A stretch of DNA of 64,000 nt from Plantactinospora sp. BC1. GTDB lineage: Bacteria > Actinomycetota > Actinomycetes > Mycobacteriales > Micromonosporaceae. Positions 17,195-28,987 of the stretch are shown here, piece after piece. The stretch spans positions 4,898,001 through 4,962,000 of the forward strand of contig NZ_CP028158.1 in NCBI RefSeq assembly GCF_003030345.1. The letters run 5' to 3'. The first letter of the stretch is position 1. Each line of letters begins with the position of its first letter. The position numbers were made by a program, and so were the translations under genes. The notes under the pieces are model-generated. The model searched no databases. It was given only the letters and a program-made list of their open reading frames with translations, and was not told the DNA's origin.

Positions 17195-18079
17195 ATGACT
17201 GAGCTACTTTATTTCACGATCATCGGGCTCTGCATCGGCTGCGGCTACGCGCTGGTGGCACTCGGCATCTCGACGCTGTTCAACGGCACCGGCGTGCTGA
17301 ACTTCGCCCAGGGTGACATCGTCATGCTCGCGGCGCTCTTCGTCGCCGTCCGCACCACCGCCGGTGGGGGATACCTCAGCGGCTTCCTGGAGGCGGTCGC
17401 GGTGGTGCTGGTCGCCAGCGTGCTGCTGGGGCTGCTCTTCGTCCGGCCGGCGATGGCCCGGCGTCGGGACATCGACCTGATCATCGTCGGCACGATCGGC
17501 GTCTCGACGGTACTGGCGAATCTCGCGAACAACGTGCTCGGCTCCGAGACGTACCGGCTGGCGAGCCCGGTCACCGCCCAGGCGGTCAGGCTGGAGTCGT
17601 TCAGCATCTCGTTCGACTACTTCGCGATCCTGCTCGCCGCCGGGCTGCTGATGGCCGCCTTCTTCGTCTTCTACCGGAAGACCGACATCGGGTTGCAGAT
17701 GCGCGCGATGTCGGCCGACGTGGACGCCGCGCGGCTGTCGGGGGTGCAGGTCGCCCGCCTGACGGTGGTCGGCTGGGTCTTCGCCGGCATCGTCGGGGTG
17801 TTCGCGGGCGTACTGCTGGGCACCGTGCTGCTGGTCAGCGCCAGCATGGGTGTGGCGCTGACGATCAGCGGCTTCGCCGCCGCGATGATCGGTGGGCTCC
17901 GGCACCCGTACGGCGCCGTCGTGGGTGGCGTGATCATCGGCCTCGCCGAGAACTACGCGGCGGGATACCTCAACACCGCCGCCCGGCAGGCGATCGCGCC
18001 GCTGATCATCATGGCCGTGCTGCTGGTGCTGCCGCAGGGCATCCTGGCCGGCCGGGGCGTCAAGGCGAGGGTGGTCTGA
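17195..18079 (+). CDS. LivH-type ABC permease
   Basis: 294 aa, about eight membrane spans, with the family N-terminus (GYALVALGISTLFNGTGVLNFAQGD, quoted in part) where NFAQGD is diagnostic. GGAG abuts the ATG directly, an unusually short spacing; coupling to the preceding gene (11 nt apart) may help. It pairs with the LivM-like permease that starts one base before its end (TGATG). Confidence 0.93.
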   Translation: MTELLYFTIIGLCIGCGYALVALGISTLFNGTGVLNFAQGDIVMLAALFVAVRTTAGGGYLSGFLEAVAVVLVASVLLGLLFVRPAMARRRDIDLIIVGTIGVSTVLANLANNVLGSETYRLASPVTAQAVRLESFSISFDYFAILLAAGLLMAAFFVFYRKTDIGLQMRAMSADVDAARLSGVQVARLTVVGWVFAGIVGVFAGVLLGTVLLVSASMGVALTISGFAAAMIGGLRHPYGAVVGGVIIGLAENYAAGYLNTAARQAIAPLIIMAVLLVLPQGILAGRGVKARVV

Positions 18080-19053
18080 TGGCGGCGGCACGCGGTGCGG
18101 CACGGGCGACCCGGCAGGGCGTGCACCTCGGCGAGGCGGCGGCGATCGCGGCCGGTGCGGTCGCGCTCGCGGCGGTGCTGGGCCCGCACGAGGCCCAGAT
18201 CGCGGCGATGACCGCGATCTTCGCCCTGGCCGGCGTCGGGCTGAACATCCTCGTCGGGTACACCGGACTGGTCTCGCTCGGCCACGTCGTCTTCTTCGCC
18301 ATCGGCGCGTACGGCTGGGCGAGGCTGACCGAGTCCGGTTCGCCGGCGCTGGCGGTGCTGGTCCCGATCCTCGTCTCGCTGGTGGTGGCGGCGCTGATCG
18401 TGCTGGTCACGTTGCGGGTCGTCGGCTACTACTTCGGCATCACGACCCTGGCCATCGGCCTGCTGTCGGTCGTCGTGGTGCAGAACGCGACCCCGCTCAC
18501 CGGCGGGTACGCCGGGATCAGCGGCATCCAGCAGATCGCCGTACCGGGATTCGCCGGTCCGGGGCAGGTACTGGTGATGTCCGGCCTGGTGCTCGCCGTC
18601 GCGTACTACCTACAGAGCAGCCTGCGGGAGTCACCGCTCGGGGCCGCGATGCTGGCCACCCGGTTCGACGTACCCGCGTCCCAGTCGCTCGGCCTCTCGG
18701 TGGCCTGGATACGACTCCTCGCCTTCATGATCAGCTCGGTGCCGGTCACCATCGCGGGCGCCTTCCTCGCCCAGCTCGTGCACTACATCGGGCCGGACCA
18801 GATGTCGCTGGAGACCTCCATCCGGCTGATCGCGATCGCCATCATCGGCGGCCGGGGCTGGCGCTGGGCGCCGGTGCTCGGTGCGGTGGTCGTGGTGACC
18901 CTGCCCGAGCTGCTCCGGCCGCTGGCCGAATACCGGCTGGTCTTCTACGGCGTCGCGCTCGCCTTCGTGGCACTGTTCATGCCGCGCGGGCTCAGCCAGC
19001 TCGTGACCTGGGTCGGCGGGCGGATCCACGCGCTGAGAGGAAGCACCGGATGA
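18079..19053 (+). CDS. LivM-type ABC permease
   Basis: 324 aa with multiple membrane spans and the LivM signature GLNILVGYTGLVSLGHVVFF at about residues 54-73. The ATG shares its A with the previous TGA. The C-terminus overlaps the start of the first ATPase gene by four bases, so translation of permease and ATPase is coupled. Confidence 0.93.
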   Translation: MAAARGAARATRQGVHLGEAAAIAAGAVALAAVLGPHEAQIAAMTAIFALAGVGLNILVGYTGLVSLGHVVFFAIGAYGWARLTESGSPALAVLVPILVSLVVAALIVLVTLRVVGYYFGITTLAIGLLSVVVVQNATPLTGGYAGISGIQQIAVPGFAGPGQVLVMSGLVLAVAYYLQSSLRESPLGAAMLATRFDVPASQSLGLSVAWIRLLAFMISSVPVTIAGAFLAQLVHYIGPDQMSLETSIRLIAIAIIGGRGWRWAPVLGAVVVVTLPELLRPLAEYRLVFYGVALAFVALFMPRGLSQLVTWVGGRIHALRGSTG

Positions 19054-19832
19054 ACACCGTTCGACTCTCCGTACGCGAGATGACCGTGCGGTTCGGCGGC
19101 GTCGTCGCGGTCGCGCGGCTCAGCCTCGACGTCACCGGCGGCGAGATCCTGGCCCTGATCGGGCCGAACGGCGCCGGCAAGAGCACCGCGATCAACGGCC
19201 TTTCCGGGTTCGTGCCGGTCACGGTGGCGGCGCTCTCCGTCCGGTACGGCGACGACGTCGTCGACCTGACCCGACTGTCGCCGCCGCAGCGCAGCCGGCT
19301 CGGCATCGTGCGTACCTTCCAGACGCCACGGCTGATCCCGGAGCTGACGGTCTGGCAGAACGTCGCGATGGGCTCGGTCGCCGGCGACGTGCGCCGCCGC
19401 TGGTTCGAGCTGCTCGGCGGGCCGGGGCTGTCCCGGGGCGCCCGGGAGCGGCGCGACCGGGCGGTCACCGCACTCGCGGCGCTCGGGCTCGACCGGCTCG
19501 CCCAGGACAGTCCGGGCGAACTCAGCCTCGGCGAGCAGCGCCTCGTGGAGATCGCCCGGGCGATGGTCTCCGGCGCCCGGGTGCTGCTGCTCGACGAGCC
19601 GTTCGCCGGACTCTCCTCGGTGGAGCAGCAGCGGCTGGCGGCCGAGATCGACAAACTGAGGTCCGCCTCGGTCGCCGCGCTGCTGGTGGAGCACAACCTC
19701 GAACTGGTCCGGTCGCTGGCCGACACCGTGGTGGCGATGGACCAGGGGGCCGAGTTCGCCCGTGGGGACGCGGCCACGGTCCTGGACTCGCACGAGGTCC
19801 GCGAACGGTACCTGGGTGAGGTGGCGCGATGA
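19050..19832 (+). CDS. LivG-type ABC ATPase
   Basis: 260 aa. Walker A GPNGAGKST (about residues 38-46), signature LSLGEQRL, Walker B VLLLDEPFAGL and switch His in VEHNLELV are all intact. It energises the Liv-type importer. The signature is the LSLGEQR variant usual for LivG. ATGA overlaps at both ends. Confidence 0.93.
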   Translation: MNTVRLSVREMTVRFGGVVAVARLSLDVTGGEILALIGPNGAGKSTAINGLSGFVPVTVAALSVRYGDDVVDLTRLSPPQRSRLGIVRTFQTPRLIPELTVWQNVAMGSVAGDVRRRWFELLGGPGLSRGARERRDRAVTALAALGLDRLAQDSPGELSLGEQRLVEIARAMVSGARVLLLDEPFAGLSSVEQQRLAAEIDKLRSASVAALLVEHNLELVRSLADTVVAMDQGAEFARGDAATVLDSHEVRERYLGEVAR

Positions 19833-20668
19833 GTGACGATCCGACCCGACAACCGGCGGCGCTGGAGCTGACCGGCTTCTCCGCCTACCACGGCGCGGTG
19901 GCCGCCGCGAAGGACGTCTCGCTCCGGGTCGAGCGGGGCAGCGCGGTCGGGGTGCTGGGCCCGAACGGGGCCGGGAAGTCGACGCTGTTGCTGGCCGCCG
20001 CCGGTTTCGTCCGGACCACCGGCGAGGTGTCGATCGGCGGACAGGTCGCCAGCCGGCTCTCCCCGGCCCGGCGGCGCCGGCTCGGCCTGGCGATGGTGCC
20101 GCAGGAGCGGGCCGCCGTCCTGGAGTTGTCGGTCGCCGAGAACCTGCGGCTATCCTGGCTCACCGGCCGGCGGGCCACCCCGTACGAGCAGGCGCGGGAG
20201 TCGGTGCTGGAGATCTTCCCGGTACTGGCGGACCGGCTCGGCGACCCGGCGGGCAACCTCTCCGGCGGCCAGCGCCAGATGCTCGCGGTCTCCCGCGGGC
20301 TGATGGCGACCTGCGACGTACTGCTGCTCGACGAGCCCACGGCCGGGCTGTCGCCGAAGCTCATCTCCGAGCTGGTGGCGGCGATCCGCACCCTGAACGA
20401 GCGCGGCATCACCGTCCTGCTCGTCGAACAGAACTTCTCGGTCGTCGAGCGCACCTGTTCGTACCTGCACGTGTTGAACGGCGGGCGGATCGTCTGGCAC
20501 GGCCCGACGAGCGCCATCGACCGGGACAGCATCGGCGACCTGTACTCGGGAGCCCGTCGGCCGCAGCCGCCGGTTCCCGGGGCGGCGGATCCGGCGCGGG
20601 AACCCCGCGTCCGGGCGGAGGCGGACCGGGCCGTACCGGCCGGATCCGGTGAACTGGGGGAGTCCTGA
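19829..20668 (+). CDS. LivF-type ABC ATPase
   Basis: 279 aa. Walker A GPNGAGKST (about residues 48-56), signature LSGGQRQM, Walker B VLLLDEPTAGLSP and H-loop region VEQNFSVV (Gln-Asn, as is usual in LivF) are present. The last ~45 residues are a Pro/Arg/Ala-rich tail not needed for the fold. Its final base is the first base of the alcohol dehydrogenase start (TGATG). Confidence 0.93.
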   Translation: MSDDPTRQPAALELTGFSAYHGAVAAAKDVSLRVERGSAVGVLGPNGAGKSTLLLAAAGFVRTTGEVSIGGQVASRLSPARRRRLGLAMVPQERAAVLELSVAENLRLSWLTGRRATPYEQARESVLEIFPVLADRLGDPAGNLSGGQRQMLAVSRGLMATCDVLLLDEPTAGLSPKLISELVAAIRTLNERGITVLLVEQNFSVVERTCSYLHVLNGGRIVWHGPTSAIDRDSIGDLYSGARRPQPPVPGAADPAREPRVRAEADRAVPAGSGELGES

Positions 20669-21903
20669 TGGAGACGGTGTTCCTACCGGCGAGCGGCTCG
20701 ACCGCCGAGTTCGTCTCGCCGGCCACGGTGGTCAGCGGCCGGGGCAGCTCCGCGCTGGTCGCCCGGGTGCTGTCGTCCCGGCTGCACCTGCCCGACGGCG
20801 CCTCGGTGCTCGTCGCGGTCGACGACGTCGTCGCGGGCGCCGGACTACTCGGGTCGATGCTGGACGCGCTGAACGCCGGGTACCGGGTGACGGTCGTCGG
20901 CGGGTTCGGCGCCGAACCGGACGACGACCGCATCGACCGGGCGGCGGCGCGGGCCCGGGAGGTCCGCGCGGACGTCGTCGTCGCGGTCGGCGGCGGCTCC
21001 GTGCTGGACGCCGCCAAGATGGTCGCGCTGCTGTTGCGCAACGACGGCGGCGCCGCCGACTGGCTCGGCCCGGTCGCGCCGCCCGGCGGCGTCGCTCCGC
21101 TCGTCATGGTGCCGACGACCTGCGGTACGGGCTCCGAGGCGACCCGGGCCGCGATGGTGACGGTGGCCGGGGCGAAACGCATCTCGGCCACCCCCGGGTA
21201 CGTCGGCACGGCCGTCGTGCTCGACCCGGCGCTGCTGGACGGGCTGCCCGGACGGATCGTCGCGATCACCGGGATGGACGCGCTGTCGCACGCGGCCGAG
21301 TCGCTGATGTCCACCGACCGCTCGCCGATGACGGTGCACCACGCCAGGGCGGCGATCGCCCTGCTGGTCGGGAACCTGGAGGCGGCCTGCCACGGTGACG
21401 TCGAGGCCCGGGCCGCCTGCCTCTGGGCGTCGCACCTGTCGGGTCAGGCGCTCAACGCGGGTGTGCTGCTGGGGCACTCGCTCGCGTACTGCGTCGCGCA
21501 CGAGCGGTCCGTACCGCACGGCGTCTCGTCGGGGCTGGCGTTGCCGTACTGCATCGCGTTCAACGCCGGTGGGCTCGAGCCGGACTGTGCCCGTACCCTC
21601 GCCCGGGCCCTCAGCTCGGACCGCGGCGACGACCTGCTCGACGCGGCGGAGGCGGTCCGGGCCCTGCTCGGTCGGCTGGAACTGCCGAGCACCCTCGCGG
21701 AGCTGGGCATCGGCGCGGAGGCGGACGACCGGATCGCGCAGCGGTGTGCCGCGGAGTACCCGCGCGCGAACAACCCGACGCCGATGACCGTGGACGCGCT
21801 GCGGCGGCTCGTCCCGGCGATGCGTACCGGCGATCTCGGCGCGGCGTTCGCGGCGGGCTCGACCGAGACGGCGACGGCGGGGTCGCGGACAGGGCTCGGC
21901 TAG
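20668..21903 (+). CDS. Iron-containing alcohol dehydrogenase
   Basis: 411 aa. Group III (Fe) alcohol dehydrogenase: the NAD-binding GGGSVLDAAK motif lies near residues 110-119 and the metal ligands D204, H208, H270 and H284 are all in place (ITGMDALSHAAES, GHSLAYC, SVPHG). It interconverts an alcohol and an aldehyde. Being coupled to the importer and in the same run as the aldehyde dehydrogenase and ligase, it could supply the aldehyde at the top of the pathway, or act on a product of C-C cleavage (inference). Confidence 0.9.
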   Translation: METVFLPASGSTAEFVSPATVVSGRGSSALVARVLSSRLHLPDGASVLVAVDDVVAGAGLLGSMLDALNAGYRVTVVGGFGAEPDDDRIDRAAARAREVRADVVVAVGGGSVLDAAKMVALLLRNDGGAADWLGPVAPPGGVAPLVMVPTTCGTGSEATRAAMVTVAGAKRISATPGYVGTAVVLDPALLDGLPGRIVAITGMDALSHAAESLMSTDRSPMTVHHARAAIALLVGNLEAACHGDVEARAACLWASHLSGQALNAGVLLGHSLAYCVAHERSVPHGVSSGLALPYCIAFNAGGLEPDCARTLARALSSDRGDDLLDAAEAVRALLGRLELPSTLAELGIGAEADDRIAQRCAAEYPRANNPTPMTVDALRRLVPAMRTGDLGAAFAAGSTETATAGSRTGLG

Positions 21904-21980: not shown

Positions 21981-22721
21981 CTATTCGGCCTCGCCGACGG
22001 GAGCCAGCGGGAGCGCTGCGGCAGCCGACGTGTCGAGCCAGACGCGCCAGTCCGGGGTGCCGGTGCTCAGCGCGCGTCCGAGCGACGTCGGGACCAGATC
22101 CTGCGCGCCGATCCGGGACAGGATGGCGGCGGTGACCGCGCCCCGGTCGACGGCCGGCGGGTCGAAGGGCTCGGCGCCGTCGTCCGGGAGCGCGACGGTG
22201 TCGTGCGCGAGCACGACCATGCCGGGTTGGAGGTGGTCGAGTTCCGCGAACGCCAGGTCGGGGGCGACCGTGTCCCAGTCGCGGCACTCCCGCTGCCACA
22301 CCACCGGGACCAGCCCGGCATCCACGGTCGCCTGCCAGACCAGGGTGTTCTGCGCGCCGTAGGGAGGGCGGAAGAACCGGACCGGTAGCCCGGTGAGGTC
22401 CTCCAGTTCGGCGCGGGCGTCGCGGAGCAGCGCCGGCACCACCGCCGGGTCGGTGCGGGTGAGTCGACGGTGGTCGAAGCCGTGCAGCGCGACCTCGTGC
22501 CCGGCGGCGACGATCTCGGCGAGGAGCAGCCGTTCGCGGCGGACCCGGACGAGGAGGGTGAAGAAGGTCGCGTACGCGCCGGCGTGTGCGAGCTGAGCGA
22601 GAACCGGGTCGGTGTCACCGCTGCGCGGCCCGTCGTCGAAGGTCAGCGCCACCGTACGCTCGCCGGTTCTGACGCCGTGCAGTGACGAACCGATCTCACC
22701 GGGTACGAGGGATCCCTCCAT
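21981..22721 (-). CDS. Polysaccharide deacetylase family protein (NodB homology)
   Basis: 246 aa. NodB motifs are clear: VALTFDDGP (motif 1, metal Asp), HGFDHRRLTR (motif 2, H-x3-H-type), RFFRPPYGAQN (motif 3) and later WDTVAPD and VLAHD. It removes acetyl or formyl groups from sugars or acts on related amides. No secretion signal is visible, suggesting cytoplasmic action. TAGAAT 8-13 nt upstream of the ATG suggests a leaderless transcript; a longer start at 22844 cannot be excluded. Divergent from the AfsA operon. Confidence 0.85.
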   Translation of the reverse strand: MEGSLVPGEIGSSLHGVRTGERTVALTFDDGPRSGDTDPVLAQLAHAGAYATFFTLLVRVRRERLLLAEIVAAGHEVALHGFDHRRLTRTDPAVVPALLRDARAELEDLTGLPVRFFRPPYGAQNTLVWQATVDAGLVPVVWQRECRDWDTVAPDLAFAELDHLQPGMVVLAHDTVALPDDGAEPFDPPAVDRGAVTAAILSRIGAQDLVPTSLGRALSTGTPDWRVWLDTSAAAALPLAPVGEAE

Positions 22722-22865
22722 GGGCCCGAATTCTATCGACAGCCGTCGTCGCGGCGGGCGTTGCTCGGAGCCGGGCGGGCGGTGGGTGTGAGGTGCGGCG
22801 ACGACCGGCCGCTCCGGTACGTCCGGCTTCGGGTCACCGTCCACACTCGACGCCTCGTCACAGAT

Positions 22866-22881
22866 CGACTACTATCAGTCG
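22866..22881. promoter_or_regulatory. Inverted repeat over a -10 box upstream of the afsA-like gene
   Basis: CGACT-ACTATC-AGTCG is a perfect repeat with 5-bp arms. It contains TACTAT (22870-22875), a good -10 sequence; the -35 is weak. This is a candidate operator for the butyrolactone operon. The remaining 330 bp between 22721 and 23052 show no convincing gene. Confidence 0.5.
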
Positions 22882-23051
22882 CAGACGCCATGGACCTCGG
22901 AGGCGACGGTGCGGCGTGCCCGCGCCAGCGACGAGCCGAGGCTGCGGCCGGCGGAGGCATGCACCCAGGACACCTTTGCAGACACCGGCCACGACGCTTC
23001 CGCACCGGCTGGCGGATCCTCTGCGCTCCAGACAGATCAGGGGGGAATCCT

Positions 23052-23804
23052 ATGCAGCGCATGCTGGTGGTCGGCGACCGCTTCGCCACCTCGACCAACC
23101 GTCCCGACGTCCGTGGGCTGTCCCAGTTCCTCGCCGAACTTCGCGGCGGCCGATACGACGACCCGCAGGAGCGACGACAGATCATCCTCGGCCAGTGCCT
23201 GGACGGCACCGCCCGGGAGCGGATCGAGCAGGAGCTGTCCCGGCGCGGCCTCACCGGCCGGATCACCATCCCGGACCGGCAGCGGGACGTGGTGCACCCG
23301 TCCCGGGTGCACAAGCGGCGACAGGAGAACGTCCTGCTCGCCGACGTGGAACGGATCGAGCCGGAGCGGTTCCGGGCCCGGCTCTCCATCGACGTGGACA
23401 ACGAGCTGGTGCTCGACCACGTCAGCGGCTGGCACGTCTCCGGGATGGTGATCAACGAGGCGGCTCGGCAGATGATCCTCGCCGTGACCGAGGGGTTCTA
23501 CGCCGCCGAGCGGTCCGGCCCGGGTCTGCAGTACCTGCTGCACTCCTGGACCACCCGGTTCGACCGGTTCCTCTTCCCGGTCGACGCCACGGTGCTCTAC
23601 ACGGTCGACCGGCTGGACGCCCGGCGACCGGACCGCCTACGGTTCGACGTCAGCGTCGACATCGTGCAGAACGGCGCCCGCGCGGCCCAGTGCACGATGA
23701 CGTTCAGCGCGATGAACGCGACCTCGTTCACCGCGATCGAGAAGCGGATGGCGAACGAGCTTCTCGACGACATCCTCCGGGCACCGGCCGAGGTCGTCCG
23801 ATGA
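23052..23804 (+). CDS. A-factor/gamma-butyrolactone biosynthesis protein, AfsA family
   Basis: 250 aa. AfsA hot-dog hallmarks: VHKRRQENVLLADVERI (residues about 80-96) and DHVSGWHVSGMVINEAARQM (about 117-136, with the active-site-like His and Glu). AfsA proteins condense a beta-ketoacyl thioester with dihydroxyacetone phosphate. A second, degenerate repeat occupies residues 150-240. ATG with GGGGGAA upstream. It is somewhat shorter than Streptomyces AfsA. It heads a five-gene operon with 4-nt overlaps. No TetR-type butyrolactone receptor gene is adjacent. Confidence 0.85.
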   Translation: MQRMLVVGDRFATSTNRPDVRGLSQFLAELRGGRYDDPQERRQIILGQCLDGTARERIEQELSRRGLTGRITIPDRQRDVVHPSRVHKRRQENVLLADVERIEPERFRARLSIDVDNELVLDHVSGWHVSGMVINEAARQMILAVTEGFYAAERSGPGLQYLLHSWTTRFDRFLFPVDATVLYTVDRLDARRPDRLRFDVSVDIVQNGARAAQCTMTFSAMNATSFTAIEKRMANELLDDILRAPAEVVR

Positions 23805-24448
23805 CCGGCGCGCTACGCCGCTTTCCGGTCATCGCACTCGGCGTCATCGGCCTCACCACCAGCCTGGCCCTGGTGCACGCGCTCACCCGGTGGTCATCGC
23901 CGCAGTACCGGGTGGCCGTGTTCTTCCTGGCCGGCTACCTGGTCTGGCTGGTTCTGGAGGCGCACGTCACGGTACGCAGCGCCCGGGAGGACCCCCGGAC
24001 GACCGACCGGGGCACCGTGCTGCTCTACGGGCTCGCCCGGGTCGTCCTCGTGCTCGCGGCGCTGCTGATCCCGCCCAGCTGGGACTCGTACCGGCCCTGG
24101 ATGCCCCTGCTGCTGGTGCCCTTCGTCGGCGGTGTCGCGCTCCGGCTGTGGGCGATCCGGACGCTCGGCCGCTTCTACAGCCACAAGGTCCGCACCGTCA
24201 CCGACCACCAGATCGTGCGCACCGGCCCGTACCGGCTCGTCCGGCACCCCGCGTACGCCGGAATGCTGTTGGCACACCTGGCCTTCGTGCTGTTCTTCCT
24301 CAGCAACGCCAGCGCCGCCGCCCTGGTCGTACTCCTGGCGCCGGCGGTGGTGGTGCGGATCCTGGTCGAGGAGCGGCTCCTCCTCGACACCACCGAATAC
24401 GCGGGGTACGCGACCGGGCTGCGCCGCCTCGTGCCGTTCGTGTGGTGA
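23801..24448 (+). CDS. Isoprenylcysteine carboxyl methyltransferase (ICMT/PEMT)-like membrane protein
   Basis: 215 aa with five hydrophobic segments. The C-terminal part has the ICMT pattern GPYRLVRHPAYAGMLL (about residues 144-159) followed by VEERLLLDTTEYAGYA, which forms the SAM site in this family. Family members methylate prenylated carboxylates or lipids; many bacterial members have no known substrate. ATGA overlap with the afsA-like gene shows coupling. It may methylate the butyrolactone-derived product (inference). Confidence 0.85.
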   Translation: MTGALRRFPVIALGVIGLTTSLALVHALTRWSSPQYRVAVFFLAGYLVWLVLEAHVTVRSAREDPRTTDRGTVLLYGLARVVLVLAALLIPPSWDSYRPWMPLLLVPFVGGVALRLWAIRTLGRFYSHKVRTVTDHQIVRTGPYRLVRHPAYAGMLLAHLAFVLFFLSNASAAALVVLLAPAVVVRILVEERLLLDTTEYAGYATGLRRLVPFVW

Positions 24449-24453
24449 GGCCG

Positions 24454-27108
24454 ATGCGCCGGATCGTCACCGGACGGCACCTGCGGGCCGTGGCCGCCGT
24501 CGGACCGAAGTTCGCCCGCCAGGCCGAGATGGCCGCAGCGGGCCTGCCCGTCCCGCCGTTCTTCTGCCTCTCCACCCGCTGCTACACCGAGATCCTGCGT
24601 CCCCACCAGCCGGAGATCACCGACCGGCTGGGCCGGATCGACTACTCCGACCCGGCCAGCCTGGCCGAGCACGCCGCCGCACTGCGGAGCCTGGTCGCCG
24701 ACGCCACCATCCCCGCCGACCTCGCCGCCGCGACACTGCGCACCTTCGACACCACCTTCGGCCCGGACGCGGCCGTCGCGGTCCGGGCGTCGGCGGTCGG
24801 GGCAGCTCCCGGCGACAGCGAGGACTCCACCGACGACGCGTTCGCCGGGCTCAGCGACAGCTTCCTCTACGTGACCCGGGACCGGCTGCTGGAGCGGGTC
24901 CGACACTGCTGGGCGTCCGCCTTCAACCCGGAGAGCCTGCTGTACCGGCACGCCGTGGCCGGCGGTCGGGCCGGACCCGCCGGCACCGGTCGACCGGCGG
25001 TGGCGATGGCGGTGGGTGTCCAGCGCATGGTGTTCGGGGAGCGGTCGTTCGTGCTCTTCACCGCCGACCCCCGCCTCGGCAGCCGGGACACCGTCATCGC
25101 GGCGGGACATGGCATCGGCGAGGGGATCGTCCAGGAGAAGGTGCCGGTCGACCACTACTTCGTCGACCGGGCCACCGGCGAGGTCCGGTCGCACGTCGCC
25201 GAGCGCGCCGAGGCACCCGGCCCGGTGCTGCGCGGGTCGCGGCTGACCGAACTGGTCCGGCTGGGCCACCGCATCGAGGACCTATTCGGCGTACCACAGG
25301 ACATCGAAGGGACCATCACCGCGGACGGGCGGGTGCACGTGTTGCAGAGCCGGCCGATCGTGCTCGACTGGGCGCGGCAGCGACTCTGGAGCAACGCGAA
25401 CATCACCGAGAGCTTTCCCGGGGTCAGCACGGTCCTCACATACTCCTTCGCGCAGCGGTTCTACCGGGCCATCTTCACCGACCTCTACCGCCGGTTCGGG
25501 GTGAGCGCCGCCGAGCTTCGCCGCCGCGAGCCCGATCTCGACCGCATGATCGGGCGGCTGCGGGGCCGGATCTACTACTCGCTCTCCGCCTGGTACCGCC
25601 TGCACCGCGGCACCGCGCTCTTTCCCCTCTGGCGGGCGGCCTGGGAGCGGATGATGGGCCTGGAGCGGACGGCACCGGACGCCCGGCGCGACCGGCTTCC
25701 GGGTACCCCGACCGGCATCTACCGGTCGGTGCTGGCCGGACTGCGGCTGGCCGGACTGGCGGTGACCCACGACCGGGCGATGCGCGACTTCGGGCGCTGG
25801 TGGGCCGGGGTCGCCGGACCGCGCCGGGGCTGCCCACTCGACTCGACCGACCCGCTCGGACTGATCGACGACTTCCACCACGTCTGGGCGGAGGTGGGCC
25901 GGCACTGGGGCCGGACGCTGGTCAACGACCTCCTGCTGACCAGCACCGCCGGTGCGACCACGGCGCTCTTCGCACGCTGGTTGCCGGACGCCGACCCCGG
26001 ACTGCTCAGCGACCTGCTCTGCGGCGACGAGGAGAACCAGAGCATCCGGGCGCTCATGTCCATTGTCGACATCGCCGAGCGGGTCCGGGCGGACCCCCGG
26101 TTGGCGGCGGCGGTCGCCCGTGGCCCGGACGACGAGGTGTGGCGTGCGATGGCGGGCGGCGCGTACGGTGACGCGCTCGTGCTCCGGCTGCACGAGCACG
26201 TCGAGCGCTACGGCGACCGGGGACTGCACGAACTGAAGCTGGAGCAGGCCAACCCCCGGCAGCGGCCCGAGCAACTGGTCCGGGTCGTCCGGTCGTATGC
26301 GGAACAGAGCATGACGGTCGCCGGGCTGCGGGACGCCGAGCGCGCCGCCCGCGACCGGGGCGACCGCCGGCTCGCCGAACTCCTCGGAACCGGCTCGCCC
26401 CGGCGGTTGATCCTCGCGGTGCTGCTGGCCCGCCAGCGGCGCTACATCCGGTACCGGGAGGACTCCCGCTACTCCCGCAGCGAGTTGTTCGGCTACGCCA
26501 AACGCACCTTCTCGGCGCTGGGCGACGCCCTGGCCGCCCGGGGAGTGCTCGCGGATCCGGCCGATGTCGTGCACCTGACCCAGGACGAGATCTTCGGGTA
26601 CTTCGACGGTACGGGGTCGACCGACCAGCTCGACGCACTCGTCGCGGTGCGCCGGGCCGAGTACGAACGCTCGGGGCCGGAACTGCCGATGCACTTCGCC
26701 ACCATGGGGCCGGTACGGGACACCTGGCCCGATCCCGGCCGTGACCCGACCCCGGTCAACGGCGACGGTGCCGGCGGGCGGGCGCAGTTGCGCGGGCTGG
26801 GATCCAGCAGCGGCAGGGTCCGTGGCACCGCCCGGGTCGTCCGGGACCCGCACGCCCGGGTGGACGCGTGCGACGACATGATCCTGATCGCCCGGGAGAC
26901 CGATCCCGGATGGCTCTTCCTGATGATGTCGGCCCGGGGCATCGTGGTCGAGCGCGGCACCATGCTCTCGCACACGGCCATCACCGGCCGCAAGTTCGGC
27001 ATCCCGACCGTCGTGTCGGTACCCGGCGCGACGGACCGGATTCCCGACGGCGCCCCCATCGAGATCGATGGCGCCGAGGGCACCGTGACGCTTCTGGAGG
27101 AGGCATGA
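24454..27108 (+). CDS. PEP-synthase/pyruvate phosphate dikinase-like protein
   Basis: 884 aa. The N-terminal third is the ATP-grasp nucleotide domain of PEP synthases (VRASAVGAAPGDSEDS near residues 110-125; LQSRPIVL near 300). The C-terminus is the swivelling phosphohistidine domain (LSHTAITGRKFGIPTVVS, H840). The central 450 residues are divergent and the PEP/pyruvate TIM barrel is not evident. This architecture matches two-domain phosphotransferases, such as the rifampicin phosphotransferase type, that pass a phosphate from ATP via His to another molecule. In this operon it may phosphorylate the butyrolactone product (inference). ATG with GTGAGG upstream. Confidence 0.85.
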   Translation: MRRIVTGRHLRAVAAVGPKFARQAEMAAAGLPVPPFFCLSTRCYTEILRPHQPEITDRLGRIDYSDPASLAEHAAALRSLVADATIPADLAAATLRTFDTTFGPDAAVAVRASAVGAAPGDSEDSTDDAFAGLSDSFLYVTRDRLLERVRHCWASAFNPESLLYRHAVAGGRAGPAGTGRPAVAMAVGVQRMVFGERSFVLFTADPRLGSRDTVIAAGHGIGEGIVQEKVPVDHYFVDRATGEVRSHVAERAEAPGPVLRGSRLTELVRLGHRIEDLFGVPQDIEGTITADGRVHVLQSRPIVLDWARQRLWSNANITESFPGVSTVLTYSFAQRFYRAIFTDLYRRFGVSAAELRRREPDLDRMIGRLRGRIYYSLSAWYRLHRGTALFPLWRAAWERMMGLERTAPDARRDRLPGTPTGIYRSVLAGLRLAGLAVTHDRAMRDFGRWWAGVAGPRRGCPLDSTDPLGLIDDFHHVWAEVGRHWGRTLVNDLLLTSTAGATTALFARWLPDADPGLLSDLLCGDEENQSIRALMSIVDIAERVRADPRLAAAVARGPDDEVWRAMAGGAYGDALVLRLHEHVERYGDRGLHELKLEQANPRQRPEQLVRVVRSYAEQSMTVAGLRDAERAARDRGDRRLAELLGTGSPRRLILAVLLARQRRYIRYREDSRYSRSELFGYAKRTFSALGDALAARGVLADPADVVHLTQDEIFGYFDGTGSTDQLDALVAVRRAEYERSGPELPMHFATMGPVRDTWPDPGRDPTPVNGDGAGGRAQLRGLGSSSGRVRGTARVVRDPHARVDACDDMILIARETDPGWLFLMMSARGIVVERGTMLSHTAITGRKFGIPTVVSVPGATDRIPDGAPIEIDGAEGTVTLLEEA

Positions 27109-28067
27109 CGGCAGGCATGACGGCAGGCATGACGGAGAACATGACGGGTGCGGCAGGCCGGCTGCTCTCCTTCGCCCGGGAACGCTTCCCGGTGCGGATC
27201 TACGGCAGCTACGCGGTGCTCTGGGTCCTCGCCCTCGACGGCTCGATCTCGCTGGTCCAGCCGAACATCGGGCGGTGGCAGCTCAGCCCGTACCTCCTGG
27301 TGGAGATCGCCTCGGTGCTGATGACGCTGCTCTTCATCCGGATCGTCGACGAGCAGAAGGACCTGGCGTACGACCGTGAACACCACCCGGACCGGCCGCT
27401 GCCCCGGGGCGCGGTACGGCTCGGCGAGGTGCGTGCGGCGACGGTGGCCTGCGGACTGGCCGTCGTCGCCGTCAACCTGGCGATCTCCCCCTGGCTCGCC
27501 GGCTGGTCGCTGCTCAACCTCGGCTACGTCTGTCTGCTCGTCGGATGGGAACGCGCGGCGCCCCGGGCCAGCGCGCGGCTCTTCCTCAACCTGACGGTCA
27601 GCTATCCGGGTCAACTGCTGGTGAGTGGCTACATCTGGCTGGCCCTGTTGATCCGCACCGACGCCGAACCGACCTGGCACGCCGTACCGGTCCTGCTGAT
27701 GTTCGCCGCCGTCTTCCTGCACTTCGAGTTCGCCCGGAAGACCAGTTGGACCCCTCGGGACGAACCGAACTACTACTCCAACGTCGTCGGCGGACGCGGC
27801 AGCGCGGGCCTGGCGATCGGTTCCGCACTCGGGGCGGTGGCGATCGCCCTGGTGATGTTCCGGCCCTGGCGGGCCGAGGGTCTCGCGGCGTTCGCGGCAT
27901 GGTTTCCGCTCTCCGCCGGTGGCTTCCTGTGGGCCGGCGGCGAGCGGTTCCTCTCCCGGTCCGTACCGGTCTGGCCGACCGCGCCGGCAAGGGGATTCCT
28001 GGCCTGGTTCTACCTCGGGCTGATCGTCCAGGCCCTCGCGGTCCAAGAGGTCGGGTGGCCCTGGTGA
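27105..28067 (+). CDS. UbiA-family prenyltransferase-like membrane protein
   Basis: 320 aa, about eight membrane segments. The first Asp-rich site appears as IVDEQKDLAYDREHHPDRPL (about residues 66-85) and a second acidic site follows FARKTSWTPRDEPN (about 210-223), as expected for Mg-diphosphate binding in UbiA enzymes. The 5' end is a tandem 12-bp repeat giving MTAGMTAGMTENM, so four in-frame ATGs (27105, 27117, 27129, 27141) are possible starts; the first has GGAGG and the ATGA overlap. It would transfer a lipid or prenyl group; the donor is unknown. Confidence 0.82.
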   Translation: MTAGMTAGMTENMTGAAGRLLSFARERFPVRIYGSYAVLWVLALDGSISLVQPNIGRWQLSPYLLVEIASVLMTLLFIRIVDEQKDLAYDREHHPDRPLPRGAVRLGEVRAATVACGLAVVAVNLAISPWLAGWSLLNLGYVCLLVGWERAAPRASARLFLNLTVSYPGQLLVSGYIWLALLIRTDAEPTWHAVPVLLMFAAVFLHFEFARKTSWTPRDEPNYYSNVVGGRGSAGLAIGSALGAVAIALVMFRPWRAEGLAAFAAWFPLSAGGFLWAGGERFLSRSVPVWPTAPARGFLAWFYLGLIVQALAVQEVGWPW

Positions 28068-28987
28068 GTGGCGGCATCCTGCTCACCGGGAGTACCGGCT
28101 TCGTCGGCGCCGCCACGCTGCGGGCACTGCTCACCACGGTGCAGGCCCGACGCGTCCGCCTCCTCGTGCACCGCCGTGCACCCGAGATCGTGGGCGGCGA
28201 CGGCGTGCGGCTGGTCCCCGCCGACCTCGGGCAACCCTCGTCGCTGCACGGCATCTGCGACGGAGTGGAGACGGTCGTGCACCTGGCGGCCCGGATCGGC
28301 GGCGACGAGGAGACCTGTCAGTTGGTCAACCACCACGGCACCGCCGCACTGCTCGCGGAGGCGCGTCGCGCCGGGGTACGCCGGATCCTCGCCCTGAGCA
28401 CCGCCGCCGTCTACGGCGACGGGGTGCACCGGGGCCCGACCGAGGACCAGCTCGACCCTCGACCGGTTTCCCCCACCAGCCGCTCCCGGTACGACGCCGA
28501 ACGGCTGGTACGCGCCGCGGGCGGCGTCGTGTTCCGTCCGATGTTCATCACCGGCCCGGGCGACACCTGGTTCCTGCCGACGCTGCTCGACCTGGTACGC
28601 GCGCTGGGCGCCTGGGTCGACGACGGTCGGGCCTGGCTCTCCACGATCCGGGTCGAGCACCTCGGCACGGTCATCGCCACCGCCGCCACCCGCACCCCGC
28701 TGACGCCCGGCGGGGTCTACCACGCCACCGATCCGTGTCCGGTACGGGTCCGGGACCTGGTCACCCGCCATGCCAACAACCCACTTCCGGCCGAGAGCAT
28801 CAGCCTGGACGAGGCCGAACGGCGGCTCCCCGCCCCGTTCACGCCCCGGCAACTGCGGCTGCTCTTCACCGACCACTGGTACGACAGCTCACGACTGTGG
28901 CGAACCCTCGACCTACCGGAACCCGGCGGCGGCACCGGCTGTGGCCGATCCTGTCCGGCGTGCCGGTCACGTGTCGCGGACGGGTGA
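28064..28987 (+). CDS. NAD-dependent epimerase/dehydratase (extended SDR)
   Basis: 307 aa. TGSTGFVG (residues about 8-15) is the glycine-rich NAD site, VVHLAAR follows, and LSTAAVYGDG with a later SRYDAERLV supplies a Ser/Tyr-like site in which the usual YxxxK is changed (no Lys after the Tyr), so activity may be altered. The GTG at 28064 overlaps the UbiA-like stop; a GTG at 28055 with AGAGG is an alternative. Last gene of the operon; it may reduce a keto group of the product (inference). Confidence 0.82.
   Translation: MSGGILLTGSTGFVGAATLRALLTTVQARRVRLLVHRRAPEIVGGDGVRLVPADLGQPSSLHGICDGVETVVHLAARIGGDEETCQLVNHHGTAALLAEARRAGVRRILALSTAAVYGDGVHRGPTEDQLDPRPVSPTSRSRYDAERLVRAAGGVVFRPMFITGPGDTWFLPTLLDLVRALGAWVDDGRAWLSTIRVEHLGTVIATAATRTPLTPGGVYHATDPCPVRVRDLVTRHANNPLPAESISLDEAERRLPAPFTPRQLRLLFTDHWYDSSRLWRTLDLPEPGGGTGCGRSCPACRSRVADG

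Follow-up and report, generated by a model that had tools for sequence, protein, structure and literature searches.

To our knowledge, natural phosphotriesters are very rare, the salinipostin (spt) cluster is the only gene cluster tied to such a compound, and none is known for cyclophostin. Products of the spt pathway, which employs an AfsA homolog and a phosphotransferase, reportedly keep their phosphorus. Salinipostins and cyclipostins are described as lipophilic P-O-alkyl compounds, and cyclophostin, from Streptomyces lavendulae, as a bicyclic enol phosphotriester with a P-OCH3 group (PMC6681047). In gladiostatin synthesis, a lone AfsA-like domain is described as condensing 3-ketothioesters with dihydroxyacetone phosphate (DHAP) in vitro, and AfsA products are converted elsewhere to furans and butenolides (PMC7756379). 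Here we analyze an operon of five genes (23052-28987, + strand) in a 64-kb stretch of the Plantactinospora sp. BC1 genome, hereafter the window. The operon encodes an AfsA-like protein, an isoprenylcysteine methyltransferase (ICMT) family protein, a phosphotransferase annotated as phosphoenolpyruvate (PEP) synthase, a UbiA-superfamily membrane enzyme, and an extended short-chain dehydrogenase/reductase (SDR). We give roughly even credence to the proposal that its product is a butyrolactone that contains phosphorus and is O-methylated, the likeliest candidate being a methyl enol-phosphotriester of the cyclophostin kind.

The proposed pathway and its enzymes

In the pathway that we propose, in which we infer every substrate and product, AfsA would join a 3-ketoacyl thioester and DHAP to give a phosphorylated butenolide, as precedent in its family suggests. 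The SDR, which is of the type found at gamma-butyrolactone (GBL) loci, would work on the ring, perhaps as a reductase. The dikinase, which resembles rifampin phosphotransferase (RPH), would use ATP to phosphorylate an enol or to activate a phosphate, much as the enol phosphate PEP is formed. The UbiA-fold enzyme may close or transfer a phosphoester by means of its Asp motif, and the ICMT would add a methyl group on phosphorus, replacing the module that supplies the fatty alkyl group in spt.

The afsA-like gene (23052..23804, + strand) encodes a 250-residue predicted phosphorylated-butenolide synthase, in which an N-terminal alpha/beta segment of ~66 residues is followed by one hotdog domain. 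PF03756 was matched in one stretch only (61.4 bits; cut-off, 24), and the AlphaFold2 model (predicted local distance difference test [pLDDT] 85.3; 9 sequences in the alignment) likewise contains the segment and a single hotdog, with FabZ and thioesterase folds as the best PDB matches. The two tandem hotdog repeats of AfsA/ScbA are therefore absent from this protein, and its score against the ScbA/BarX equivalog was 39.5 bits (cut-off, 200). The active-site residues D122, H123, H128, E136, R139, and Q140 (the DH-H-ExxRQ motif), whose loss had been set beforehand as grounds for rejecting the prediction, are all retained. In a mixed AfsA alignment, D122, H123, and H128 were each present in 93 of 94 rows, E136 was Glu in 44, and R139 was Arg in 32; we think that the low counts arise from one- and two-domain proteins being aligned out of register. 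When unaligned sequences were inspected, the full pattern was found in all 17 rows of the single-hotdog type and in 16 of 78 rows of the two-domain type, and ExxRQ alone in 72 of these 78; here, as in the locus counts and the tree below, the type is that of the best-matching query and not a measured domain number. Phosphorylation of the AfsA product is well supported, and this part of the original prediction is the best reading of the locus.

The single-hotdog type is also found in P450-bearing clusters (L192, L194, and L197, with one Pfam stretch in L194). Other P450-bearing clusters carry the two-domain type, which suggests that both types catalyze the same reaction and that the single-hotdog enzyme can replace the two-domain enzyme in similar clusters. 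AfsA was present in 52 of 250 genomes of the family and in none of six other genomes of the genus, and it was matched once in the 8.33-Mb genome studied here. That the family is Micromonosporaceae agrees with its members G126 and G106, whose loci are duplicates of those of Micromonospora chaiyaphumensis and Dactylosporangium fulvum. The operon is probably a small, self-contained pathway. Many Micromonosporaceae genomes also have a single-hotdog relative (26%-39% identity) but gave no matches to the remaining four genes within the fetched stretch (L031-L035, L037, L038, L040-L044, L046, L048, L050, L069, L071-L074, L076, L077, L079, L086, and L088).

The phosphotransferase gene (24454..27108, + strand; 884 codons, with the in-frame GTG codons at 24442 and 24445 as possible alternative starts) encodes a protein that matched PPDK_N (162.3 bits) and PEP-utilizers (73.5 bits) in Pfam, and 5fbs, the structure of RPH-Lm, was among its three best PDB matches. 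The catalytic His (H840) lies near the C terminus, as in RPH, and not in mid-protein, as in PEP synthase. H840 aligns with the phospho-carrying His of RPH and is present in 102 of 103 rows (1 gap); R668 and E669, which align with RPH Arg666/Glu667, are present in all 103, and K19 and R111 are also conserved. The protein thus shares with RPH the ATP-grasp Lys/Arg, the C-terminal phospho-His, and the acceptor Arg-Glu pair; unlike RPH, it can be aligned to the PDB RPH chains in its ATP-grasp and C-terminal parts only, and it scores 259 bits on the NCBIfam RPH model (cut-off, 999). In RPH, the His is reported to carry the phosphate and the Arg-Glu pair to pass it on, and Ala substitutions abolished rifampin inactivation (PMC4844700). 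Judged from these residues, phosphotransfer is supported as the predicted activity of the dikinase. An enol or a phosphate is the favored acceptor, because an enol phosphate is both the product of PEP synthase and the core of cyclophostin and salinipostin. One Micromonosporaceae relative (L083, 7799-8770) has a broken phosphotransferase gene, in which matches covered the N-terminal part and a short stretch of the C-terminal part; the neighboring AfsA, ICMT, ketosynthase, P450, and UbiA genes were all matched.

The ICMT gene (23801..24448, + strand; 215 codons) encodes an integral-membrane protein that is predicted to methylate a phosphate to P-O-CH3. It scored 68 bits against PF04140 (cut-off, 24) and 54 bits against the NCBIfam isoprenylcysteine methyltransferase equivalog, short of the cut-off of 160. 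The residues of the RHPxYxG and EE motifs are conserved (H149 and P150 in 78 of 78 rows, and E190 and E191 in 77 of 78). Methylation of a phosphate has a possible parallel in lmtA, which is said to methylate the lipid A phosphate (PMC4103559), and the ICMT may likewise put its methyl group on phosphorus.

Somewhat doubtful, yet the best of the alternatives, is a phosphorus-free methylated butenolide, furan, or ester: the ICMT would act on a carboxylate, the usual substrate of such enzymes, or on an enol, and the dikinase would be a ligase like RedH or PigC, activating a carbonyl through transient phosphorylation. The dikinase matched RedH and PigC at 282 and 213 bits, the former above the RPH score, although both scores are far under the cut-offs of 1350 and 1300, and the conversion of other AfsA products to furans and butenolides (PMC7756379) is in keeping with such an end product. 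The acceptor Arg-Glu pair of RPH is kept in all 103 rows and would argue for phosphate transfer. The products of the pathway to which the spt homolog belongs reportedly keep their phosphorus, which also speaks for an organophosphate.

The extended SDR gene (28064..28987, + strand; 307 codons) encodes a protein that matched PF01370 (Epimerase; 74.8 bits) and, as predicted, lacks the Lys of YxxxK; Tyr143 and Arg147 occupy this site. We rejected decay as the explanation: Tyr and Lys do not occur together at this site in any of 31 aligned rows (window included), which makes the loss characteristic of the whole subfamily. The protein belongs to the same family as the SDRs encoded beside ScbA/ScbR, being 47% identical to the product of a Streptomyces globosus gene that adjoins ScbR near ScbA, and its relatives also adjoin AfsA in loci that have no phosphotransferase gene (L055, L059, L063, L064, L066, and L067). 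By gene position and published description, these relatives occupy the place of GblE/JadW2, which is called essential, with its step unknown (PMC5735094).

AfsA and an SDR of this type are both GBL-locus genes, and a TetR-like gene (identified by eye) adjoins the cluster in L082, L083, L085, and L138. A conventional, receptor-mediated GBL hormone, decorated by the products of the additional genes, is nevertheless improbable. The whole genome yielded 46 matches to the ScbR family, none above the cut-off (best, 62 against 150 bits), and such subthreshold TetR matches were likewise obtained in 13 of 14 control genomes; no TetR gene was seen by eye beside the operon. A-factor synthesis, moreover, is not known to require a dikinase or a UbiA enzyme. 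The case for the "signal" of the original prediction is therefore weak. An AfsA cluster of Ruegeria pomeroyi is described as needed for killing competitors (PMC7426152), and by analogy the product might be a weapon rather than a hormone.

The UbiA-like gene (27105..28067, + strand; 320 codons) encodes a protein whose score against PF01040 (26.5 bits) is under the cut-off of 34.2. Its AlphaFold2 model (pLDDT 91.5) has a UbiA fold, and the top PDB folds were digeranylgeranylglyceryl phosphate (DGGGP) synthase (6m31, the closest) and UbiA homologs. The first Asp motif (D82/D86/D90) is retained in 93 of 93 rows. The second Asp-rich motif of prenyltransferases was not found; E208 (90 of 93) and K212 (92 of 93) stand at what we take to be its site, and we read them as a likely sign of an unusual substrate. 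Among the 7 genomes of the genus, this gene is present in that of BC1 only. Several in-frame ATG codons lie within a short repeat at the start of the gene (27105-27140; MTAGMTAGMTENM) and make the true start uncertain. A modified, membrane-bound lipid, for which AfsA would supply acyl-DHAP, the UbiA protein would act as an archaeal DGGGP synthase, and the ICMT would cap the phosphate, is very improbable: the model is indeed closest to DGGGP synthase and both the ICMT and UbiA are membrane proteins, but the operon has no polyprenyl synthase gene, E208 and K212 replace the presumed second motif, and the same core occurs in spt.

Related loci and the phosphotransferase tree

A search for the ICMT in 354 genomes of the family gave strong matches (E values of 5.3e-48 to 3.6e-32) at 10 places outside the window, and all 10 adjoin AfsA and phosphotransferase genes (L075, L080-L085, and L138-L140; in L140, the phosphotransferase is present only as a piece at the contig end). 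There were 13 weaker places, of which L141 and L142 were opened; neither has these partners. Similarly, all 10 UbiA matches outside the window in 394 genomes of the class adjoin AfsA and phosphotransferase genes. One of these matches, L129, comes from another family and carries all five genes in the order of the window, with identities of 35% (AfsA), 49% (ICMT), 56% (phosphotransferase), 53% (UbiA), and 52% (SDR).

We also scanned a named genome collection with a phosphotransferase profile and took the best 80 of 134 relatives; the profile contained no spt sequence, and the sample therefore leans toward ICMT clusters. Among 110 phosphotransferase loci, 86 have an ICMT without at least two spt modules, 11 have spt modules without an ICMT, 13 have neither, and none has both. 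Removal of L053 and L083 for length (L053 is cut by the locus end and comes from the same genome as L092; L083 has the broken gene) and of the duplicates L189, L190, L195, L208, and L224 left 103 nonredundant loci, with AfsA in 93, UbiA in 94, and ICMT in 80. Ten of the 103 are of the spt type, and 13 lack an ICMT; six of these 13 (L157, L158, L168, L169, L172, and L196) begin at most 2.8 kb from a DNA end, where an ICMT gene may have been cut off, and the other seven make up a single group in the tree described below. Where at least 3.5 kb was available on both sides (75 loci), AfsA was found in 72, ICMT in 67, UbiA in 69, and all three in 59.

The gene order of the window recurs in nine further loci of the 103 (L129, L149, L151, L160, L161, L163, L164, L176, and L202), and the arrangement is thus not due to chance. 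A variant order (AfsA-ICMT-SDR-phosphotransferase-UbiA) occurs in 12, including two Burkholderia loci with SDR matches of 54% and 52%. We sought four types of reductase and rejected the idea of a "reductase slot" shared by all clusters, as 40 of the 103 loci have none of them. Names such as ketosynthase, SnoaL, P450, TetR, and ligase were first given to genes of the relatives by eye; the S. durmitorensis annotation covers most of them.

In a phosphotransferase tree (quick method, midpoint root), a branch of 2.04 separated the 10 spt rows from the 93 others, which include the window. L129, five Streptomyces loci, and the window together form a 7-row clade (support 100), and six of the seven have the single-hotdog AfsA type. 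Elsewhere in the tree, ICMT genes accompany the phosphotransferase in myxobacteria, cyanobacteria, and several proteobacteria, many of them metagenome bins, and relatives occur as far afield as Burkholderia, Corallococcus, and cyanobacteria. The rows of Pseudomonas and Burkholderia fall among those of actinomycetes, which suggests gene transfer between phyla. Homologs of this kind are said to span 12 phyla.

Several variants stand beside these counts. Nine loci (L150, L155, L159, L165, L170, L173, L200, L220, and L226), from nonactinobacterial metagenome bins, have two ICMT-like matches in tandem before the phosphotransferase gene, which could mean two methylations. A subclass without an ICMT (L060, L065, L137, L183, and L203) has the phosphotransferase, UbiA, the two-domain AfsA type, and a ketosynthase. 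Two further genes were seen in L203, one P-loop kinase-like and the other with a HIT-like HxHxW stretch; neither gave a Pfam match above the cut-off. Seven Mycobacteriaceae loci (L212, L214, L216, L218, L219, L222, and L225) show the variant AfsA-ICMT-phosphotransferase-P450-UbiA.

A number of observations weigh against an O-methylated organophosphate as the product. The phosphotransferase falls below every NCBIfam cut-off (RPH, 259 against 999 bits; RedH, 282 against 1350; best PEP synthase model, 538 against 883), and the ICMT matched the model of LmtA, the lipid A 1-phosphate methyltransferase, weakly (20.8 bits; cut-off, 325). Named ICMTs are known to act on carboxylates, and we know of no product for any of the ICMT-bearing clusters found. 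The ICMT is not indispensable, because a 7-row group that lacks it (L060, L065, L137, L183, L203, L204, and L210) nests inside the ICMT branch. The mutual exclusion of ICMT and spt modules counts as one old split rather than as repeated independent swaps, because the two kinds of cluster part at one place in the tree. The SDR match is weak (25%-34% identity) in 10 of the 12 loci with the variant order, and the roles assigned to the SDR, the dikinase, and the UbiA enzyme are themselves predictions.

We suggest, more tentatively than for the product of the operon itself, that clusters of AfsA, ICMT, phosphotransferase, and UbiA account genetically for cyclophostin-type methyl organophosphates, whose genes have been missing, that such natural enol-phosphotriesters are made by bacteria of at least five phyla (Actinomycetota, Pseudomonadota, Myxococcota, Cyanobacteriota, and Bdellovibrionota), and that the five genes of the window are the minimal set. 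If this is true, a large group of proteins now named "PEP synthase" and "isoprenylcysteine methyltransferase" would gain a role. Above all, the locus makes cyclophostin-type biosynthesis amenable to testing: with a compact set whose order is shared by Streptomyces and Pseudomonas, one can ask gene by gene where the P-O-alkyl group and the enol phosphate come from.

Operon layout and neighboring genes

The window sequence, Pfam, and, for the UbiA-like protein, the predicted fold confirmed all five coupled genes of the original prediction at the place and on the strand given for them. Neighboring genes overlap by 4 bases at three of the four junctions (ATGA, ATGA, and GTGA); at the fourth, the ICMT and phosphotransferase genes are 5 bases apart. 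A G-rich ribosome-binding site lies directly 5' of 23052. The promoter should sit in the intergenic stretch (22845..23051) between afsA and a divergent polysaccharide deacetylase-like gene (21981-22844, identified by eye); no match to the sigma-70 consensus was found in this stretch. Farther upstream (17195-21903), ABC transporter genes that by eye belong to the branched-chain amino-acid kind precede a gene for an iron-containing alcohol dehydrogenase (PF00465; 20668-21903). We rejected the latter as an operon member, as it ends a run of + strand genes that the divergent gene cuts off from the operon. The GC content is 0.71-0.73 across the operon and 0.68-0.75 across the window. Searches for island signatures found no tRNA within the window, and defense-system models gave no match.

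Comparison with known systems

A Streptomyces clavuligerus megaplasmid cluster (WP_003953131 to WP_306584020), for which we know of no product, has the order AfsA-ICMT-phosphotransferase-UbiA, with the UbiA protein annotated as hypothetical. Its AfsA best matches the single-hotdog type, and its phosphotransferase is 52.6% identical to that of the window and belongs to the same 7-row clade (support 100); unlike the window, it has an NADP-dependent oxidoreductase gene in place of the SDR gene. Pseudomonas mangiferae (L163) and Pseudomonas sp. RIT-PI-AD (L176) have all five genes in the same order, but they belong to another phylum and carry the two-hotdog AfsA type (two Pfam stretches in L163, best match only in L176).

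We compared the operon gene by gene with the AfsA locus of genome G180, which we take to be Salinispora tropica CNB-440; in Salinispora, the spt operon reportedly gives both salinipostins and Sal-GBLs. This spt locus has nine genes, encoding a PEP-synthase-like protein, an AMP-ligase, a nucleotidyltransferase-like protein, an acyl carrier protein (ACP), an SDR, a nucleoside diphosphate kinase (NDK), a UbiA protein, a luciferase-like oxidoreductase, and AfsA. Common to both are AfsA, the phosphotransferase (31% identity), the UbiA-like enzyme (33% identity), and an extended SDR. The AMP-ligase, ACP, nucleotidyltransferase-like gene, NDK, and luciferase-like oxidoreductase belong to spt, which has no ICMT; the ICMT is the sole gene of the window set that is extra to spt. 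The shared components also differ: the spt AfsA has two hotdog stretches rather than one, the spt SDR is of the fatty-acyl-reductase type (PF07993, 154 bits) with a YxxxK stretch, and the spt phosphotransferases form a separate branch of the tree. In spt, the long alcohol of the P-O-alkyl group could come from the ligase, ACP, and reductase, and no tblastn match to this alkyl module (ligase, ACP, PF07993 reductase, NDK, and nucleotidyltransferase-like gene) was found near the window operon.

The original prediction, which saw a smaller spt set with methyl and lipid transfer added, thus holds in part. A phosphorylated AfsA product remains the best reading, and the ICMT is indeed an addition; the UbiA-like enzyme is already present in spt and so adds no lipid transfer. 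We rejected a reduced spt operon, since the window phosphotransferase lies in another deep and large branch and the ICMT is the single extra gene. A literature search (titles and abstract openings, with most subscription papers out of reach) turned up neither an ICMT-bearing AfsA cluster nor a cyclophostin gene cluster. The likeness to cyclophostin is one of predicted chemistry only: a P-OCH3 group in place of the longer P-O-alkyl group would set the product of this operon apart from the salinipostins and beside cyclophostin.

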